Shown: piece by piece, positions 25,946 through 61,632 of the stretch
How the letters are laid out: the number at the start of each line of letters is the position of its first letter
Numbering within the stretch: position 1 is the stretch's first letter
Source of the DNA: an uncultured Thermoanaerobaculum sp.
Lineage (GTDB): Bacteria; Acidobacteriota; Thermoanaerobaculia; Thermoanaerobaculales; Thermoanaerobaculaceae
Assembly: GCA_937934115.1 (NCBI GenBank)
Contig: CALHAH010000007.1
Span: 1-64,000, forward strand
Direction: 5' to 3'
Length of the DNA: 64,000 bases
The notes under the pieces: model-generated
Told to the model about the DNA's origin: nothing
Databases searched by the model: none
The model's input: only the letters and a program-made list of their open reading frames with translations
Position numbers and translations under genes: made by a program

Positions 25946-26314
25946 CTAAAAACCCACGGTAACCGTCACTTCAGCAACCAAAGCCCCGCCCCGCAGGGCT
26001 CGGCACGCATAACGCCTGAGCCGCCCAAAGGTGGCTTCCTTTCGGCAAACCACCGCTAAGCGGTCGCCTGGGTGCACCTCTTGCTTCAAAGTTGCTTGGT
26101 CAATGGCTACCAAGCGCAGCTGTTCCCTGTGTGCAGGAGGATCGGCAAGCAGGATGGCTTGCGCCATGGCATCGGTGAGCATCGTTACGGGGACGGGAAA
26201 GGGAAAGCTTTCGGAAGCACCCACAGAGGGGAGGACCACCACGGTCTCCCCTTGGCGTTCGGCAAAGCGGAAAGGGGGCTGGTGGGGGAGGGTATCAGGC
26301 TGCCTCCTGGACAC
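25946..26314 (-). CDS. FabZ/ApeI-like hotdog-fold dehydratase
   Basis: About 122 residues. LPHQPPFRFAER near the N-terminus matches the LPHRxPFLxxDR motif of 3-hydroxyacyl-ACP dehydratases (the His is present). MLTDAMAQAILLAD matches the central hotdog helix (ExxAQ-type), with Asp in place of the usual Glu. KQEVHPGDRL matches the PGD strand. It probably dehydrates or binds an acyl chain on the adjacent ACP. The start is uncertain: GTG 26314 overlaps the ACP 3' end by 20 bp and no start codon lies at ideal spacing from AGGAGG. Its function is inferred. Confidence 0.65.
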   Translation of the reverse strand: MSRRQPDTLPHQPPFRFAERQGETVVVLPSVGASESFPFPVPVTMLTDAMAQAILLADPPAHREQLRLVAIDQATLKQEVHPGDRLAVVCRKEATFGRLRRYACRALRGGALVAEVTVTVGF

Positions 26315-26567
26315 CCTTACTCCGCAAGAAATCCACAAGGGCATTCACCGAGGCGAAGGCCTTGGTCCCCACTTCCTCATCCTGGATACGCACGCCAAAC
26401 TCCTTTTCAATGCCGATGACCAGCTCCAGGGCATCAATGGAGTCAAGCCCCAGCCCATCGCCAAAGAGGGGAGCAGCGTCATCTATGTCCTCAGGGCTCA
26501 CCCCGTCCAGCTGCAGCCTGTTGATGATTAGTTCCTTAACCCTGCGATGCAGCAAGCTTTCTCCCAT
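26295..26567 (-). CDS. Acyl carrier protein, specialised type
   Basis: 90 residues. The phosphopantetheine site is GLDSIDALELV, with Ser as attachment point, followed by the acidic helix IEKEFGVRI. The GLDSIDALEL form is more typical of ACPs in aryl-polyene and similar type II pathways than of housekeeping AcpP (usually GADSLDTVEL); that is family knowledge, not proof. ATG 26567 was chosen because GGGAGGAGG lies upstream. It leads an operon with the hotdog dehydratase and STAS genes. Confidence 0.85.
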   Translation of the reverse strand: MGESLLHRRVKELIINRLQLDGVSPEDIDDAAPLFGDGLGLDSIDALELVIGIEKEFGVRIQDEEVGTKAFASVNALVDFLRSKGVQEAA

Positions 26568-26658
26568 CGCGCCCCAGAACCTCCTCCCACGGAGAGTATA
26601 GCCCATTCGCTTTCAGCACGGCAAAACCAGCCCCCTGGTCCTAGGGGGCGCGAGGTGG

Positions 26659-52972: not shown

Positions 52973-55222
52973 ATGCTAGCGTTGTTCGCTTTGGCCTTGG
53001 GCCTGGCAACCGTTGAGCCGGGGCCCACCTGGCAAGTACACGTGCAACTTCCCAGCCCGGGGGAAAGCGCTGACGTGACGGTGCTGGCCTTGCCGGGGCA
53101 GGAGCCAAAGCTCAACGAGGTTACAGTCGGAGGTACCACCGTTGTGCTGCTCCTGGCCAACGGCAAGGACGAGCAGCCCTGGGCCTTAGCAGGGCCCTCT
53201 TGGGTGAGCGAGCCGGTTTTCGGCAAGCCTCCGCAGGTGCTCAAGGCTTTACCCGCCAGGAGGTGGCAGCTTTCCCTGGCGCCAGCATCTCAATTGATGG
53301 CCCGCCCCTCGTTTTTGCGGCTGTTGCCGCTGGATGAGCAGGGGGTGCCGGCCGGTCCCCTTTGGGCTTACCCGGTGATTTGGCAAGAAAGTCGGGCCCG
53401 GGTGTGGGTTCCCGAAGGCAAGTGGCATGCTTTCCTTTACGTCGCAGGCGCCATGGAAGTGGATTTGGGGCCGTTGCCGGAAAAAGGCGAGCTATCACCT
53501 CGCCAGCTTTCCTTGCAACCCGGGGCGAGCCTGGTGTTTCGCATGGCGCAGGATCGTGGTCTTCCGGCTAAAGTTTGGCCTTTTCCCGAAGAGCAGTGGC
53601 AGGACCTTTACTGTGCAGCCAGCGGCCCCGGGTTGCAGCAGTTAGCTGGGGGTGTTTGGGTGGAGCGGGGAGGGTGGGTGCGTGTGGCCCTTGACAGAGC
53701 CGGGTCACTGCTGGTGGCCGGGACCGTGGAAGGCATGCCGCCGCAAGTGTGGGGGCCGTTTTTGCTAGCGGTGGGCAAAGAAACCGACGGTGGTGTGGTG
53801 CTTCCGGCCAGCGCCAGCCTTGAGGTCGTGGTGCCGGGGAGCAAGCCGTTGGTGACCAATCCCCTGCACGAGCTTTCCGTGCTCCTCTGGCCCACGGTGC
53901 TGGGTGAATTCAGCCAATGCCTGCAGGCGCAACGCCTCAGTGACTTGGAAACCGCGGCCTTTGCCGGGTTGTTCCCGGGCACCTGGTTTGTGGAAGTGGC
54001 GGCTCAGGTGAAGCCCCACGTGAGCGCCGGGGTTCTTACCCGGCGGGAGGTGGTGGAGCTGCGGCCGGGCGAGCATCGCACACTGGTTTTGCCCCTTCGG
54101 TTTTCTTTGGTGAAAGGCCGCATCCACCATCAGGGAGAGCCCGCCCATTGTCTTATCGAATTGCGCGTGGAGGACGGGGAAGGAAAGGAGCACAAAACAG
54201 CGGGCTGGTCAAACCCCAACGGCACGTTCCTTTTGCCCGGTGTGGCCGCCGGTGTGGGAGAAGCGGTAGTCACGTGTCTTAAACCTCAAGCCAACGCCAC
54301 CATCGCCCCCGTGGAGGTGCAACCGAAGGTGCCTCTGGATTTGGAAATTCCGGGAGGAGAAATAACTGGGACTGTGGTGGACGGCAAAGGCCTGCCGCTG
54401 GCCGGCTGGCAGGTGCAAGCCCGTTGGCTCATCACTCCGCCGGTGCCGGACTCGCTGGCCTTTCTGCGTTACACTTTTACCCGCACCACCAACCCGCAGG
54501 GGGCTTTCCGCTTTTCTCACCTTGCCCCGGGGATGTACAGGCTGGTGGCTATCTCTCCGCAGCGGTGGAAAAGCCCACCGGTGTTCGTGGAGCTAGCGAG
54601 CAGCAACACGCAACGGAAAGTGACCTTAAGGGTTGAAGAAAAAAAGAAAGCCTTGCTTTTGCGTGTCCCCGACTCCCGTGGGCGCTTTGAGCTTTTAGCC
54701 GTCCCGCGGCCGGCAAGCCCCTTCTCTATGAACGATCTCAGCACCGGGGGTGAAATCCCGGCGGACGGGCTGGTGCGGTTGCCGTTTTCCTGGGAGACAG
54801 TGGCGGAAGCCTTTTTAGAAGTGGTGCTGCCACCCCCTAGGGGCGTGTGGTGCGGTGCCCTGGATCCTCAATGGTGGCAAGCCCAGGACACGGTGGAGCT
54901 TACGATTCCCGATGTTTGGGGAAGCTTAGAGATTCGCTACCGGGGGGCAGAGGGAAGGTACCCGCCTTTATTCCTCATGGCGCAGGACGGCGCAGTGTGC
55001 AGCGTATTCTCGTTAAGCCACGGGTTTGACCCGCCGGCAGCGGTGTGGGACCCGCAAAACGCTCGTATCCTGATTCCTGCCTTGGCGCCGGGCCTGTACC
55101 AAGTTTTGGTTGTGCCAGGTGGTGGGCTTTCTCCCGAAAGCTTGGGTGGGCGGAGGAGCACCAGTGCGCCATGGGTAGCGGTGACCGCAGGTGCCGTGAC
55201 TACGGTGGAGGTGAGCTTTTAG
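52973..55222 (+). CDS. Large secreted protein with carboxypeptidase-regulatory-like domains
   Basis: 749 residues. A short hydrophobic signal (about 1-15) is followed by many beta-sandwich-like segments. Several match the CarboxypepD_reg pattern, for example GEITGTVVDGKGLPLAGWQV with TTNPQGAFRFSHLAPGMYRLVA, and RIHHQGEPAHCLIEL with NPNGTFLLPGVAAG. No catalytic motif is visible. GTAGGGGG lies upstream of the ATG. It is probably a surface or periplasmic adhesion or scaffold protein. Confidence 0.75.
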   Translation: MLALFALALGLATVEPGPTWQVHVQLPSPGESADVTVLALPGQEPKLNEVTVGGTTVVLLLANGKDEQPWALAGPSWVSEPVFGKPPQVLKALPARRWQLSLAPASQLMARPSFLRLLPLDEQGVPAGPLWAYPVIWQESRARVWVPEGKWHAFLYVAGAMEVDLGPLPEKGELSPRQLSLQPGASLVFRMAQDRGLPAKVWPFPEEQWQDLYCAASGPGLQQLAGGVWVERGGWVRVALDRAGSLLVAGTVEGMPPQVWGPFLLAVGKETDGGVVLPASASLEVVVPGSKPLVTNPLHELSVLLWPTVLGEFSQCLQAQRLSDLETAAFAGLFPGTWFVEVAAQVKPHVSAGVLTRREVVELRPGEHRTLVLPLRFSLVKGRIHHQGEPAHCLIELRVEDGEGKEHKTAGWSNPNGTFLLPGVAAGVGEAVVTCLKPQANATIAPVEVQPKVPLDLEIPGGEITGTVVDGKGLPLAGWQVQARWLITPPVPDSLAFLRYTFTRTTNPQGAFRFSHLAPGMYRLVAISPQRWKSPPVFVELASSNTQRKVTLRVEEKKKALLLRVPDSRGRFELLAVPRPASPFSMNDLSTGGEIPADGLVRLPFSWETVAEAFLEVVLPPPRGVWCGALDPQWWQAQDTVELTIPDVWGSLEIRYRGAEGRYPPLFLMAQDGAVCSVFSLSHGFDPPAAVWDPQNARILIPALAPGLYQVLVVPGGGLSPESLGGRRSTSAPWVAVTAGAVTTVEVSF

Positions 55223-55260
55223 CCGCAGGCTCTTGCCCTAAGGTTTGCTGCCGTTCTCCA

Positions 55261-55365
55261 GCACCACCGCCACGCACGCTCCACCAGCGGCCACGGCGGT
55301 GACCAGGGCGGTGCGCGGGCTTTGGCCCACTTCTGCCACCGAGGGGAAGCCATGGGCTTGCAGGT
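55261..55365 (-). pseudogene. Duplicated 3' fragment of the chain-length-factor-like gene
   Basis: About 105 bp nearly identical (two visible mismatches) to 58300-58404, the 3' end of the KS-beta-like gene. On the minus strand it encodes the same C-terminal segment (AHGFPSVAEVGQSPRTALV then TAVAAGGACVA) but continues into a different end. Upstream coding sequence is missing, so this is a remnant. The two copies lie in direct orientation and flank 2.9 kb holding a pseudogene and a secreted-protein gene. Confidence 0.85.
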
Positions 55366-56159
55366 GCGGCGCGGTTCTCACCACAGCGCAGGTTATTCCC
55401 TGTTCCCTAGAGGCAAAGCTGGAGTTTGAGGGTGGCCAAGATGTGGTAACCACCGGCGGCCATCTCCATGATCGTCGCAGCACTGCGAATTTCCTAGCTT
55501 CCATGGGTGGACGTTGGTTTGCTTTTATGGGTGAGGGTGCGGCGCCCCAATTGGAAGCAACGGGCAACATAGGGTATTCCACGGGCCAAGGGAAGGTATT
55601 CATTCCCGAAGCCTCCGGGGCCTTTTGGATTCGGGCTTACCTCACGGCGCTGGACGAAAGGTACGTTTGTGTGGGTGGGGGTGGTTTCGTGGCTATTCCG
55701 TCACAACCTCGAACGTGCTGGGGAGGTTTTCAGGTTAAGGTAAAAGTTGACAAGCTCGAGCCCCTGCCACCACAAAGCCCGTACTACATATTGCTTGCAA
55801 ACCTTCCGCCCGCCATGTGCCTGAGGTATGGAACGGCACCCTTCCTATGCTCGTGAGCATGGTGGAGTTTGCCATAGAATACCAACGGCGTTACGCGGAG
55901 CGGTACGGGGGAAAAACCGTGAGGGTTGCAATCAACGACCTTTCCTTGCCGTTGGGGGGGCTTTACGACATCTTCGCGGATTGGGACTGCCCAATTTCCG
56001 GCACCGGTTGGGAACTTCGGCGGACGTAAACACGCGCCACGCCGATGGCAGCAGTGTGGATCAGAAACTCATCGATAAAGCTGCTGAGGCCACGAAGAAG
56101 CTACGCCGTAATAACAGGGAAAGACCAAAGATTCACTTTGATTACATCGGAGGTAACCT
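55366..56159 (+). pseudogene. Frame-disrupted remnant of a secreted protein
   Basis: Protein-like sequence passes through all three plus frames. From about 55420 to 55800 it contains VVTTGGHLHDRR, GGRWFAFMG and ASGAFWIRAYLT. From about 55810 to 55990 it contains VPEVWNGTLP and RVAINDLSLPLGGLYDIFADW. From about 55990 to 56159 it contains HRLGTSADVNTR and KIHFDYIGGN. Adding one C in the CCC run near 55989 would join the last two parts. No signal peptide remains and the 5' end abuts the duplicated gene fragment. The His/Asp motif HRLGTSADVN recalls LAS-type metallopeptidases, a weak suggestion only. Confidence 0.7.
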
Positions 56160-58220
56160 ATGAAATTCGCCATGCGTTCTTTGGGTGTTGCGTTGGTGGC
56201 TGTATCTAGCGCTAAAAGTTGGTGCCAAACGGCGCCGCCGCTGCCGGTTTTCGAAGGCTTTACTGTGGAATCCTCCTGCCAGCCCCATGATGATGGCTTT
56301 CATTTCCGCTACACCTATTTTGTTACCAATCCCCCGACCAACACCGACGAGATTTGGCACCTGCATCTCCCTGCAGGGGTGGCTTGCCCGGTCATTGACT
56401 TTGTGCCAGCGCCGGGCTGGTTTGGTTTTGTTGAGGACCTTACCAATGCGGCTTTTACACTTCCGCAGCACCCGCAGGTGGCCTTGTGGCATCCGAGGGC
56501 TGGTCATGGTGTGCCGGGTTCTCGGTCAGGCCCATTTACGTTTGCTTCCTGCGCTCCGCCTACGATTGGTGAATTATGGATAGGCATTTGGCTTACACCG
56601 TATTTTGAAGCGTACATGGACGCGTTTGGGCTTGAGGGGTTGGAGGCAGAGTTTGAGGATAGTGTGCGTCGAGCTTACATCCGCAAGGTACCCACCCTGG
56701 CGCCAAGCTCGGAGGACCTTGGGAGCTTTGCCCATTGGGATGAGCTTTATGCGAACGTAAGCAAAGCCAAGGAGCTTGGGTGGATAACGGCAGCTTTGGC
56801 TGAGGCGGTGCAAGTGCGGCTCCGGGAAGGCCGGCAAGCCGCAGTGATGCAGGATCTGGCCACCGCCTCGGGCAAGCTTTCCGAGGTTGTGAGCTTGGTG
56901 CAGCAAGCGGATGAAAGCCAACGCAAGGTGGAGGCGCGAGATCTCGTGGTGCTCAATGCCCAGTACTTGAAGGAGCACCTGCCATGGCCCTGTGAACCTG
57001 CCTTGGTGTTGGCGCCGGTATCGGCCCACCATGGGATTGGCGAGCGCCACACCGCGACAGCGCGGCTTTACAACCGCGCTACGGGTTTGCCCATGGTAGG
57101 GGAGCAGGTCATCATCGCGGTGGAGGATGGACCCCATGCGGGCACCCGAGCCCAGGGGGTCACCGACGGCGAAGGGAAGTTTAGTTTGCAGTATACGGGG
57201 GTGAAGGTAGGGGAGGATAGGCTGCGGGCCTACACGCCTGGGGAGGGGGAAAGCTTAAGCAAGCTGGTGGTTGTTGTTGGCAAGGAAAACGATTCGCTAC
57301 CCCCCAAGGTGCAACGCCCTCGGAGCAAGCGACCGCGGGCTTCGCTGTCCGGCCCTGCCAGTGAGTGCCGGGTTTCCCGCGGGGAGCTTGGGGGTGCCTT
57401 CAGTGAGGTGGCGACCGTGGAATGGAGCGCGGGGCCGGATCTGGTGGTAGCGAGCTTTACGCCGCGCATGTTGATGTCGGCGCCTGGAGCCGAGTTTTAC
57501 CTCAACGAAACCACCAGCAATATGGGCGCTGCGGCTGCCCCCCCATCCGTAACCCGCTATTACATCTCGCAAGAGTACCCGGTGAATCCTGCCACAGCGG
57601 TGGTTCTTGGCGAACGCCAGATCCCGCCTCTGGCGCCGGGAGAGGAAAGTCAGCGGCCCCAGGTGGTATTGCGGGTACCGTCCACCCTGCCTGCGGGAAC
57701 GTACTTCCTGGACGCGTGCGCCGATGCTCCCAACAGCATCGTGGAAACCAACGAGGCGAACAACTGCGCTTCCAGTTCGCTGCAGGTGGTGGCGGGATTT
57801 TTACCCCCCAATGCCCCACCGATCTGCGCCCAGGCGACGGCAATTCCCGGGTTGCTTTGGCCGCCCAACCACAGGTTCGTGGAGGTGGGCATTGCGGGTG
57901 TGAGCGATGCGGATGGGGATGCGGTGACGCTTACCGTGACCGGTGTGACCCAGGATGAGCCCACGGAAGGGTTGGGGGATGGGGATGGGTGCCCGGACGC
58001 GGAGGTGGGAGAAGGTGGCAAGGTGCGGCTGCGGGCGGAGCGTTCAGGGACAGGCAACGGGCGGGTGTACGTGGTTTCCTTTACCGGGAGTGACGGCAAG
58101 GGGGGCCGCTGCACCGGTTCTGTGCGGGTGGGTGTGCCGCACGACCAAAACCAGCCGCCGGTGGATGATGGGCAAAGCCACGACGCCACGGCATGCTCGG
58201 GGCGAAATCCGCGACGGTAG
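56160..58220 (+). CDS. Secreted protein with Ig-like and CARDB-type domains
   Basis: 686 residues. Signal peptide (about 1-22). Residues about 30-160 form an unrecognised beta-rich domain with paired cysteines; a helical stretch follows (about 165-275). A carboxypeptidase-regulatory-like Ig fold lies near 290-375 (HTATARLYNRATGLPMVGEQV, TDGEGKFSLQYTG). A CARDB domain (about 415-540) has PDLVVASFTP and NSIVETNEANNCASSSLQV. The last part (about 555-660) is Ig/cadherin-like with Asp-rich motifs (DADGDAVTLTVTG). GGAGGTAACCT precedes the ATG, and a strong terminator follows. Confidence 0.8.
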   Translation: MKFAMRSLGVALVAVSSAKSWCQTAPPLPVFEGFTVESSCQPHDDGFHFRYTYFVTNPPTNTDEIWHLHLPAGVACPVIDFVPAPGWFGFVEDLTNAAFTLPQHPQVALWHPRAGHGVPGSRSGPFTFASCAPPTIGELWIGIWLTPYFEAYMDAFGLEGLEAEFEDSVRRAYIRKVPTLAPSSEDLGSFAHWDELYANVSKAKELGWITAALAEAVQVRLREGRQAAVMQDLATASGKLSEVVSLVQQADESQRKVEARDLVVLNAQYLKEHLPWPCEPALVLAPVSAHHGIGERHTATARLYNRATGLPMVGEQVIIAVEDGPHAGTRAQGVTDGEGKFSLQYTGVKVGEDRLRAYTPGEGESLSKLVVVVGKENDSLPPKVQRPRSKRPRASLSGPASECRVSRGELGGAFSEVATVEWSAGPDLVVASFTPRMLMSAPGAEFYLNETTSNMGAAAAPPSVTRYYISQEYPVNPATAVVLGERQIPPLAPGEESQRPQVVLRVPSTLPAGTYFLDACADAPNSIVETNEANNCASSSLQVVAGFLPPNAPPICAQATAIPGLLWPPNHRFVEVGIAGVSDADGDAVTLTVTGVTQDEPTEGLGDGDGCPDAEVGEGGKVRLRAERSGTGNGRVYVVSFTGSDGKGGRCTGSVRVGVPHDQNQPPVDDGQSHDATACSGRNPRR

Positions 58221-58255: not shown

Positions 58256-58287
58256 CGGCGGGCCATGGGTGCCCGCCGGTTTTTTTT
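58256..58287 (+). terminator. Intrinsic terminator after the CARDB protein gene
   Basis: Stem CGGCGGGC/GCCCGCCG with a 7-base loop (58256-58278), then GT and eight T in a row (58280-58287). The T-run overlaps the stop codon of the convergent KS-beta-like gene at 58286-58288. Confidence 0.88.
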
Positions 58288-59425
58288 ACGATGCGGCAAG
58301 CACCGCCGCCACGCACGCTCCACCAGCGGCCACGGCGGTGACCAGGGCGGTGCGCGGGCTTTGGCCCACTTCTGCCACCGAGGGGAAGCCATGGGCCTGC
58401 AAATGCTGCGGCACGGGCCATTGGGGTTTTACCTCGCCACCCAGCACCAAGGCAGCCACCGCGGCGCGCAAAGCGGAAGAAAAAGCCCCTTCCCCTAGCT
58501 TTTCCACAACGCTTCCCACCACCGCCGGGCGGTGGGAGCCCAAAAGCTTTCGCAGCGCAGCTTCTTCCAGTTGGGAAAGGGCAGGCGATCCGTTGGCCAA
58601 GCTCACCACCAGGTCCACGTGCGCCGGGGCAAGGCCTGCCTGGGCAAGGGCTTTGTGACAGGCGGCCACCAGTGCTTCCGGGCTTTCGGGGTAGCGGTGG
58701 GGCATCGTGGGCAGGGCGGCAGCACCAGTGCCGGCAATCACCACCGGGCTGGGGTTTGGGGTGAGCAACAAAACAGCAGCCCCCTCCCCCAAAGGAAAGC
58801 CGGGGCGATGGGGCTTTCGTAAGGCGCGCAAGCGGTCAAAGCATTCGGCGTTGAGCCACTGCGCTTCATCTACGCCGCAGGCCAGCATGGCTTGGGCTCG
58901 CCCGCTTCGTAGGAAACGCGCGGCCTCCACGATGGCTCGCAAGCCCGAGGCTTGCTTTTCAAAAAACGTGAGGTTGGGACCTCCTAGCTTTTCCAAGATG
59001 CCCAGTTGGCTGGCCGCAGCGTTGGCCACTGAGTTGGGGAAGTGCATGGGTGGGGCTTCTTCGGGGCCAGCGGTAAAAACTGCTTTGAGGATTTCCACCA
59101 GCGCATCGGTGCCGGCGTTCCAGGTGCCGGCGCACACCCCCACTTCGTCCCGGGGCCACGGGAGTTCTGGCCCCCACGGCGCTAAGGCTTCTTTGGCGGC
59201 TACAGCCAAAAGCCGGGAAGGGCGGTCCAAGCGGCGAGCAACCAGCGGGGGAAGGATGCCTTTGGTGTCAAAGCCGGTGCAGGTGACCACCGGCAGGGGA
59301 GGGCCATCGGGGCGGGAAAGCCCCAAGGGTGCCTGGAAGTGGGGTTGCTGCAAAGCTTGCTTGAGAGAAGCCACACCCATGCCGGCGGCACTCACCACCC
59401 CGAGAGCACCAATCCCCACCATCAC
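58286..59425 (-). CDS. Ketosynthase-like protein lacking the catalytic triad (chain-length-factor-like)
   Basis: 379 residues in the thiolase/ketosynthase fold. The active-site nucleophile region reads FFEKQASGLRAI, with Gln158 where ketosynthases have Cys. The first His motif (HGTGT) is replaced by LANGSPAL and the second His region by VEKLGEGAFSSAL. All three catalytic residues are therefore lost. Gln at this place is the hallmark of KS-beta/chain-length factors of type II polyketide systems. It overlaps the active ketosynthase gene by 4 nt (GTG 59425 or ATG 59422), as such pairs usually do. The two probably form a heterodimer. Confidence 0.82.
   Translation of the reverse strand: MMVGIGALGVVSAAGMGVASLKQALQQPHFQAPLGLSRPDGPPLPVVTCTGFDTKGILPPLVARRLDRPSRLLAVAAKEALAPWGPELPWPRDEVGVCAGTWNAGTDALVEILKAVFTAGPEEAPPMHFPNSVANAAASQLGILEKLGGPNLTFFEKQASGLRAIVEAARFLRSGRAQAMLACGVDEAQWLNAECFDRLRALRKPHRPGFPLGEGAAVLLLTPNPSPVVIAGTGAAALPTMPHRYPESPEALVAACHKALAQAGLAPAHVDLVVSLANGSPALSQLEEAALRKLLGSHRPAVVGSVVEKLGEGAFSSALRAAVAALVLGGEVKPQWPVPQHLQAHGFPSVAEVGQSPRTALVTAVAAGGACVAAVLAAS
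58300..58404 (-). repeat. Parent copy of the 105-bp direct repeat
   Basis: The 3' coding end of the chain-length-factor-like gene, nearly identical to 55261-55365 in the same orientation. Confidence 0.85.
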
Positions 59426-60630
59426 GCCCTCCCTAAGGCCAAGACCGCCGAGTTGCCGCCAAAGGCAAAGGAGGAGGAAAGGGCAACCTCCACTGGCTGT
59501 TTTCGCGCACGGTTGGGAATGGGGTCTATGGGGCAGGCGGGATCGGGTTCTTGGAAGTTGGCGGTGGGTGGCAGCAAGCCGTGGTACAGGGCCAAGACCG
59601 TAATGGCTGCTTCAATGCCGCCGGCAGCGCACAAGCAGTGGCCAATGGCCCCTTTCACTGAGGAGACCGGTATTCGCGCCAGGCGTTCGCCAAACACCTG
59701 CAGGTACGCGGCGCATTCCGCGGGGTCGTTTTGTTCAGTGGCGGTGCCGTGGGCGTTGATGTAGTCCACGTCTTCCGCAGCTACCTGCGCGGCTTCTAAA
59801 GCTTGCCGCACCGTACGGGCCCAGGCGGAACCGGTGGGCTCGGGTTGCGTCATGTGGAACGCATCGTTGGTGACGCCGTAACCCAAAACCCGTGCCAAAG
59901 GCGTTGCCCCGCGCCGCCGGGCGTGGTTTTCCTCTTCCAACACCAAAACCGCTGCCCCTTCGCCAAGGGAGAGCCCTTGCCGGCGGCGATCAAAGGGCTT
60001 GGCCGGTTCGGTGTCCATCGCCCGCAGGGAGTTAAAGCCGGCAAAGGTGAGCCGACAGAGGGCATCGGCACCGCCCGCAAGGACCACCTCGGCGTCGCCA
60101 CGGGCGATGCGCTCTGCCCCCACACCCACCGCCAGGGCCGAGGAGGAACAGGCGGTGGTGATGGTCGTCCGCTCGCCCGTCAATCTCCAGGCGAGAGCAA
60201 CCCGATCGGCCACCACGTCTTGGGGGACCTCCAGGAACTGGGTAAGGCCCCGGGCTTGGGGACCGCGGGTCAAACGGTGAGCAAAAAAGCCCTCAGCTTC
60301 CCAAAGGCCGGCGGCGCCGCCACCAAAAATTACCGGCCACGGTGCCCCGAAAACCGAATCAAAGCCGGCCTGCTTTAAAGCTTCCTCGGCTGCCGCTAGG
60401 GCCATGAGGCTTGCGCGACACGCGTGGCGCCGGGCTTTTTCGCCAATGGTCGCAAGCTGCAAGGCCGAGGTATCCACCTGCGCTGCTAGCTGGCTGCGAT
60501 AACCGGTGGGGTCGAATAAGGTCAGAGGGCGGATACCGGTTTTTCCGGAATTGAGGGCTCCCCACGTGGCCTCGCGGCTGAGGCCCAGCGCGGTGACCAT
60601 CCCCACTCCCGTGACCACCACCGAAAACAT
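59422..60630 (-). CDS. Beta-ketoacyl-ACP synthase (KS-alpha, FabF-like)
   Basis: 402 residues. The catalytic triad is complete: Cys161 in TITTACSSSALA, His in NAHGTATEQNDPAE and His in KGAIGHCLCAAGG. It condenses malonyl-ACP with an acyl chain. The NAHGTATEQND form and its coupling to a Cys-less partner point to a dedicated type II pathway rather than housekeeping FabF. TATACT at 60639-60644 lies 8 nt before the ATG, suggesting an almost leaderless transcript. Confidence 0.9.
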   Translation of the reverse strand: MFSVVVTGVGMVTALGLSREATWGALNSGKTGIRPLTLFDPTGYRSQLAAQVDTSALQLATIGEKARRHACRASLMALAAAEEALKQAGFDSVFGAPWPVIFGGGAAGLWEAEGFFAHRLTRGPQARGLTQFLEVPQDVVADRVALAWRLTGERTTITTACSSSALAVGVGAERIARGDAEVVLAGGADALCRLTFAGFNSLRAMDTEPAKPFDRRRQGLSLGEGAAVLVLEEENHARRRGATPLARVLGYGVTNDAFHMTQPEPTGSAWARTVRQALEAAQVAAEDVDYINAHGTATEQNDPAECAAYLQVFGERLARIPVSSVKGAIGHCLCAAGGIEAAITVLALYHGLLPPTANFQEPDPACPIDPIPNRARKQPVEVALSSSFAFGGNSAVLALGRA

Positions 60631-60651: not shown

Positions 60652-61632
60652 TTAAAAGCCGTCCCCGTCCAAAACGTTGCCCAGTGGGCCGAGAACCGAT
60701 CCTTCTTCCCGGCGCTTTCCGGGGAGCGTCGCCTGGAGCATCCTCCCCGCCAAGCGGGAGAAGGGCAGGGACTGCAGCCAGACGCGGCCTGGTCCGCGCA
60801 AATGGGCAAAGAAAACGCCCTCACCGCCAAACAGCATGGACTTGACGCCCCCCACGGTTTGGATGTCGAAGTCCACCGTGGGTTCGAAGGCCACCACGCA
60901 GCCGGTATCCACGTGCAGGCTCTCCCCGGGGCCGAGAGTGCGTTCCACCACGGTACCGCCCGCGTGCACAAAGGCGAGACCATCCCCTTCGAGCTTCTCC
61001 ATGATGAAGCCTTCCCCACCAAAAAGGCCGGTGAGGATTCTCTTTTGGAAGAAAATGCCAAGGGAAACCCCGCGGGCGGCCGCAAGAAAGGAGTCCTTTT
61101 GACAGATCAGCTGGCCACCCACATCGGGCAAGTTAATGGGCAAGATGGTGCCGGGAAAAGGCGCGGCAAAAGCAACCCGGGCTTTGCCGGTACCACGGTT
61201 GGTAAAAAGCGTGATGAACAAGCTTTCCCCCGTGAGCAGGCGCTTGCCCGCCGACAGCAGCTTGTCCATAAACCCGGCCTCGCGGGAAGCATCCCCAAAG
61301 ACGGTTTCCATAAGTACCGCCGGGTCCTTGTACATCATGGCGCCAGCTTCAGCGATAGCTGACTCACCAGGATCCAGCTCCACCTCCACAAACTGCATTT
61401 CGTGCCCCACGATGCGGTAGTCAATCTCATCGGCCCGGCGCGTGCGCGGTGGTGGAGGCGGCACCACGCCAGGTCCCGCGGTCAATTCTGGCAAAGACTT
61501 GATGGGAACCCAGTCCGCCAACCCCTCCCGCCAAGCGTAGCCTTGGGGGTTGGAAGCCGCTTGCGCCCGGGCGGCGGCGTCGTCCATGGGACCGATGCGG
61601 TTAGACCCGTAAAGGAAGTACCAGCTGGCCAT
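60652..61632 (-). CDS. GYF_2-domain plus AIM24/TIGR00266 family protein
   Basis: 326 residues. The first ~50 residues match a GYF_2 domain (WYFLYGSNRIGPMDDAAARAQ, WVPIKSLPEL). A Pro-rich linker (PPPPPR) leads into an AIM24-type beta-rich domain of about 240 residues, with QFVEVELDPGESAIAEAGAM, GGEGFIMEKLEGDGLAFVHAGGT and HVDTGCVVAFEPTVD. The biochemical role of the family is unknown. ATG 61632 has GGCGAGGAGGG upstream. Confidence 0.85.
   Translation of the reverse strand: MASWYFLYGSNRIGPMDDAAARAQAASNPQGYAWREGLADWVPIKSLPELTAGPGVVPPPPPRTRRADEIDYRIVGHEMQFVEVELDPGESAIAEAGAMMYKDPAVLMETVFGDASREAGFMDKLLSAGKRLLTGESLFITLFTNRGTGKARVAFAAPFPGTILPINLPDVGGQLICQKDSFLAAARGVSLGIFFQKRILTGLFGGEGFIMEKLEGDGLAFVHAGGTVVERTLGPGESLHVDTGCVVAFEPTVDFDIQTVGGVKSMLFGGEGVFFAHLRGPGRVWLQSLPFSRLAGRMLQATLPGKRREEGSVLGPLGNVLDGDGF

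Follow-up and report, generated by a model that had tools for sequence, protein, structure and literature searches.

The locus examined here raises the question of what a ketosynthase (KS) and a directly coupled, KS-like partner without the catalytic residues make together, and with which other enzymes. We analysed it within the window, a stretch of 64,000 nucleotides of an uncultured Thermoanaerobaculum sp., and compared it with 60 genomes sampled from relatives, including 16 relatives of the same family, Thermoanaerobaculaceae (Acidobacteriota; f1 below). ORF calls at the relatives' loci are heuristic, and some of them are N-terminally extended.

Both open reading frames lie on the minus strand where the earlier, sequence-only reading had placed them (Table 1). 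The KS gene comes first and the partner gene directly after, with a 4-nt overlap between its GTG start and the KS stop codon, which bears out the coupling that had been described. The KS scores 129 and 128 bits against the N- and C-terminal Pfam ketoacyl-synt models, whereas the partner matches both halves weakly (66 and 32 bits), above cut-off. Against the NCBIfam FabF model (cut-off 494 bits) the KS reaches 375 bits and the partner 73, so that neither attains the housekeeping FabF cut-off.

Table 1. Genes of the pair and candidate partner genes (window positions, except where a contig is named)
Gene	Position	Strand	Length	Remarks
KS (ketosynthase, KS-alpha-like)	59422-60630	-	402 aa	C161, H294, K326 and H331 intact
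CLF-like partner (KS-beta-like)	58286-59425	-	379 aa	Q158, L276 and E312 at the triad positions
ACP2 (second acyl carrier protein)	26298-26606	-	103 aa	candidate KS-CLF partner
DH (hotdog dehydratase-like)	25949-26344	-	132 aa	overlaps ACP2 gene; candidate partner
KR (SDR ketoreductase)	C6:75192-75893 (another contig)			candidate partner; beside GT2 gene

The KS does keep the Cys-His-His triad attributed to it, together with Lys326, and all four residues are invariant across the aligned relatives. MAFFT and HMMER alignments agree with the claim that Gln158 replaces the catalytic Cys in the partner. They correct the claim that Asn replaces the first His: Leu276 occupies that position, which varies among 14 aligned f1 sequences, and the residue that had been misaligned, Asn278, lies two residues further on, within a conserved ANG motif. 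The second His is absent, as had been noted, but its position holds an acidic residue, Glu312, and is Glu or Asp in all 14 sequences. Three chain-length factors (CLFs) of family f2 (L068:3343-4566, L069:1242-2462 and L070:308-1531) also have Gln at the Cys site, set in a different loop (TQRQ); unlike the others, they carry Asn or Ser at the second His position and no acidic residue there.

The partner, or a fragment of it, is found in every f1 genome among the 60 relatives. At 15 loci, in 14 of the 16 f1 relatives, the KS gene directly precedes it, and in the remaining two relatives the CLF is present as no more than a fragment at the end of a contig. This adjacency answers the earlier concern that the partner might not be kept beside the KS in relatives. 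Five residues of the partner loop (F154, E156, K157, Q158 and G161) are invariant in the 14 aligned f1 sequences and, taken with the adjacency at 15 loci, argue that the pairing is not a product of chance. Both genes are under purifying selection, with a dN/dS of about 0.14 for each (window versus nearest congener, at a dS near 1), and both evolve faster than FabF (79-83% identity for KS and CLF versus 97.5%). One relative, G004, holds two diverged f1-type KS-CLF pairs (L046, L047).

Whether the partner is a CLF or a FabF paralogue that has lost its activity was addressed by phylogenetic placement, the check that the sequence-only reading had proposed. We built a careful tree of 66 rows, with support given as bootstrap/SH-aLRT, and a quick tree of 88 rows; the PDB reference rows were copied from HMMER alignments, and some are partial. 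A plasmid search with the partner returned distant matches only (at most about 34% identity), which served as references. In the careful tree a single clade (100/99) holds the CLFs of the class. Support is likewise 100/99 for a sister grouping of the f1 CLFs with the CLFs of families f5, f10 and f11, and for the KS proteins, whose branching mirrors that of the CLFs. FabF proteins form a clade of their own (100/99); the ordinary FabF of this genome lies with AcpP on contig C15. A branch supported at 94/92 parts all CLFs, among them chain C of PDB 9s5h and the KS-beta of actinorhodin, from all KS and FabF proteins; long branches in this tree could attract one another, and the order among the deep CLF clades is not settled by it. 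The quick tree agrees on the family placements. Given this placement, with CLFs and away from FabF, descent from CLFs is the best reading of the partner, rather than recent decay of a FabF, and the tree and the conserved pairing together support the original description of a KS-alpha/KS-beta pair. A decayed FabF paralogue without a condensation function, or a partner serving as a scaffold only, would fit the loss of the catalytic triad and the weak match to FabF models. Yet the invariant pseudo-active-site loop, the low dN/dS, the 4-nt overlap and a tree position far from FabF all speak against such an origin; the tree, the loop and the dN/dS led us to reject the decayed paralogue, and we consider this alternative as a whole very unlikely.

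A single-chain structural model of the partner (mean pLDDT 79, pTM 0.85; stretches 53-66 and 119-156 are weak) shows a predicted two-domain KS fold with both thiolase halves. Because both FabF and CLF structures match the model (1tqy chain B, E 5e-21), the fold search leaves the choice between CLF and FabF undecided. In the actinorhodin CLF the chain-length gate is formed by F109, T112 and F116. A hand alignment places T106, L109 and L113 of the partner at these positions, so the pocket of the partner may be deeper than that of the actinorhodin CLF.

The neighbours of the pair in f1 are genes for Mut7-C, DUF465, phosphatidylserine decarboxylase (PSD) and CDP-alcohol phosphatidyltransferase proteins, the upstream genes vary (AIM24, MscL), and PKS tailoring genes adjoin the pair in none of the f1 genomes inspected, the window included. 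The observation that no ACP, dehydratase or reductase gene adjoins the pair thus holds for its immediate neighbours but not for the window at large, which contains an ACP and a DH-like gene at 25.9-26.6 kb and, at 17.9-19.6 kb, genes resembling fabD and fabG.

Around the pair itself, an AIM24-family protein with a GYF_2 domain is encoded just upstream of the KS on the same strand (60652-61632), a position in which it was seen only in the three Thermoanaerobaculum genomes. On the other side, a 112-nt stretch of the CLF 3' end (58299-58410) is repeated, 96% identical and in the same orientation, 3039 bp away at 55260-55371. A gap of just 78 bp (L035:10565-10643) lies between CLF and Mut7-C in the sister species G001, unlike the window, where about 5.5 kb (52973-58220) separate the two genes, carrying the gene of a 749-aa CarboxypepD_reg protein, the copied CLF tail and the gene of a 686-aa CARDB protein.

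Other families of the class arrange these genes differently. In f7 and f9 the KS-CLF genes lie within clusters that include AMP ligase, FAD oxidoreductase, ACP and GT2 genes, with a DH-like gene directly before the KS, and in f2 the gene immediately before the KS encodes an ACP. In one f3 genome a few genes separate KS-CLF and an AMP ligase gene from genes for PssA and PSD like those of f1. In f5, f10 and f11 a 4HBT thioesterase gene follows the pair in several cases, and PilZ response regulators are encoded nearby; the thioesterase of f5 and f11, when sought in f1, gave weak matches only and was left out of the proposed system. Response-regulator/PilZ-like proteins (L155:10606-11343, L156:4230-4886, L053:7379-8065) adjoin both the ACP operon and the KS-CLF genes in the sister families, a recurrence that may point to common regulation or to a function at the surface.

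Family searches and protein searches for partner genes led to a second acyl carrier protein (ACP2) and a dehydratase-like protein (DH), encoded 32 kb from KS-CLF in the same window, and to a likely ketoreductase (KR) on another contig. The ACP2 and DH genes lie next to each other in 15 of the 16 f1 relatives. ACP2 is kept by nearly every f1 genome with KS-CLF, a co-occurrence that common descent confounds within a single family. It is 67% identical to the ACP of an AT-KR-ACP-DH operon in the sister family f5 and 45-53% identical to the ACPs in the KS-CLF clusters of f2, f7 and f9, as against 37% to AcpP of its own genome. The full order of the f5 locus is GT2, polysaccharide deacetylase, AT, KR, ACP, DH-like and a PilZ-type regulator, the last named from its likeness to other PilZ proteins in the relatives. 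The DH retains the LPH motif. In this species Asp takes the place of the dyad Glu, which is present in the f5 protein and in the f1 relatives that were aligned. BLAST shows no significant likeness between the dehydratases of f1 and f5, which resemble each other by position and motif only. The KR gene stands beside a GT2 gene in f1 genomes as it does in f5; relative G015 has an AT gene between the two, an arrangement also found in f5. Its 46% identity to the f5 KR and 45% to FabG of its own genome does not separate KR from FabG. On these arrangements, the simplest history would be that a single GT2-AT-KR-ACP-DH unit came apart in f1, KS-CLF being already separate in the f5 lineage. The sequence-only reading had called the locus a minimal pair whose pathway is otherwise scattered; the scattering is supported, and the first part was an understatement in that a conserved ACP-DH pair accompanies KS-CLF in f1, in the same window.

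We propose that KS-CLF is probably the condensing component of a dispersed reducing type II PKS/FAS-like system, acting with ACP2, DH and, with some likelihood, KR. Since the parts are unlinked in this genome, the case for their partnership is built on conservation and on the synteny seen in relatives. We infer that KS and CLF form a heterodimer in which the KS would carry out decarboxylative Claisen condensation, adding malonyl units to an acyl chain bound to ACP2. The full-length CLF, with neither catalytic Cys nor His, would be the other half of the dimer and would limit chain length by shaping the pocket. The most likely partners of this heterodimer are ACP2 and the hotdog dehydratase (25949-26606); the KR would probably reduce and the DH dehydrate the growing chain, with malonyl loading by FabD or, in some relatives, by a separate AT. 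The product would be an unsaturated or hydroxylated acyl chain, probably destined for the envelope. The genes assigned to the system include neither an enoyl reductase nor an enzyme for product release.

The main alternative is that KS-CLF draws on the housekeeping AcpP, FabG, FabZ and FabD to make a fatty acid of special length or function, and that ACP2-DH serves another pathway. Several observations accord with it: PKS enzymes are missing beside the pair throughout f1, the FAS genes of this genome are scattered too, FabF models are the best-scoring models for the KS, and the conserved neighbours of the pair are the phospholipid genes PSD and PssA in f1, which in f3 lie a few genes off. ACP2, however, belongs with the ACPs inside the KS-CLF clusters of f2, f7 and f9, and nearly all f1 genomes with the pair retain it. 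We therefore regard this alternative as unlikely and favour a dedicated partnership of KS-CLF with ACP2 and DH.

A wider proposal, which we put forward tentatively, is that this is a family-wide, vertically inherited and permanently unclustered type II polyketide-like synthase (KS-CLF, ACP, DH and KR) that sits amid housekeeping genes and makes a core envelope lipid, not a strain-specific secondary metabolite. The housekeeping genes around the dispersed parts include those for phospholipid synthesis, RNase R and an rRNA methyltransferase. KS-CLF enzymes are normally taken as signs of strain-specific biosynthetic clusters. If the proposal is true, cluster-based genome mining would miss or misread a family-wide KS-CLF whose ACP, DH and KR are encoded elsewhere, and its presence would point to a CLF-controlled chain as part of the normal cell chemistry of these little-studied acidobacteria. 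The relatives offer clustered, two-locus and dispersed forms, a series in which one can trace how a synthase comes apart.

Comparison with characterized systems narrows the identity of the pair. The sequence-only reading had likened it to aryl-polyene as well as type II polyketide synthesis, and a true aryl-polyene KS-CLF of the ApeO-ApeC type (PDB 6qsp, 7f28) likewise joins a KS to an inactive partner. ACP2 stands just at the cut-off of the NCBIfam model PRK09184 (70.1 versus 70 bits), which we take to represent the ACP of aryl-polyene clusters. The genome also encodes an ammonia-lyase and MMPL proteins, and in related families of the class genes for AMP ligase, ACP, FAD oxidoreductase and GT2 surround the KS-CLF genes. 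On closer inspection, the only ammonia-lyase found is the histidine ammonia-lyase HutH, and the best MMPL protein resembles HpnN. Clustered tandem ACPs, KR, DHs and a second KS, the hallmark of aryl-polyene loci, do not adjoin the pair in this or the f1 genomes, and in the careful tree ApeO is a long, weakly placed branch away from the window KS. ApeC, moreover, is about half-size, with a single thiolase domain (PMC8358021), whereas the partner has 379 aa and both domains and is therefore not of the aryl-polyene type. On the size of the CLF and the missing cluster we reject an aryl-polyene identity as highly improbable, and this part of the earlier comparison is not supported. Most improbable of all is a KS-cyclisation-factor pair like AmcF-AmcG of cispentacin: the KS reaches 249.5 of the 325 bits required for AmcF and ACP2 40.8 of the 80 required for AmcB, likenesses that both fall below cut-off, and AmcG is without some CLF secondary structures (PMC10698177), whereas the partner is full length.

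Closer in layout is the actinorhodin KS-CLF (PDB 1tqy), in which an active KS is followed by a full-length inactive partner with Gln for Cys, in a similar loop (EQAGGLDA, compared with EKQxGGLRA in the window partner). It differs in that the window pair has no aromatase/cyclase or clustered ACP, in the second His position, which is Arg in the actinorhodin CLF and Glu or Asp in the f1 partner, and in its place in a separate, deeply divided clade. The KS-CLF of highly reducing type II PKSs, such as Iga11-Iga12 of ishigamide (PDB 6kxd), acts with a separate KR and a separate DH on a chain carried by an ACP (PMC10698177, PMC8358021). In the systems of this kind that have been described the genes are clustered, whereas the candidate parts here are dispersed, and Iga11 falls in another KS clade than the window KS. 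Chain C of the KS-CLF in PDB 9s5h/9s5i shares the absence of Cys and a Glu at the second His ("TGECYDASG") but lies on a separate tree branch and has no Gln at the Cys site; a literature search for PDB 9s5h found no relevant paper. KS-CLF pairs have already been reported from 14 phyla including Acidobacteria, along with a large, poorly classified non-actinobacterial clade; most of the non-actinobacterial pairs match poorly and are hard to classify (PMC10132072). That classification covered at most 30 kb around each pair and did not describe dispersed partners; what appears to be new here is the dispersed arrangement with identifiable candidate partners across a whole family.
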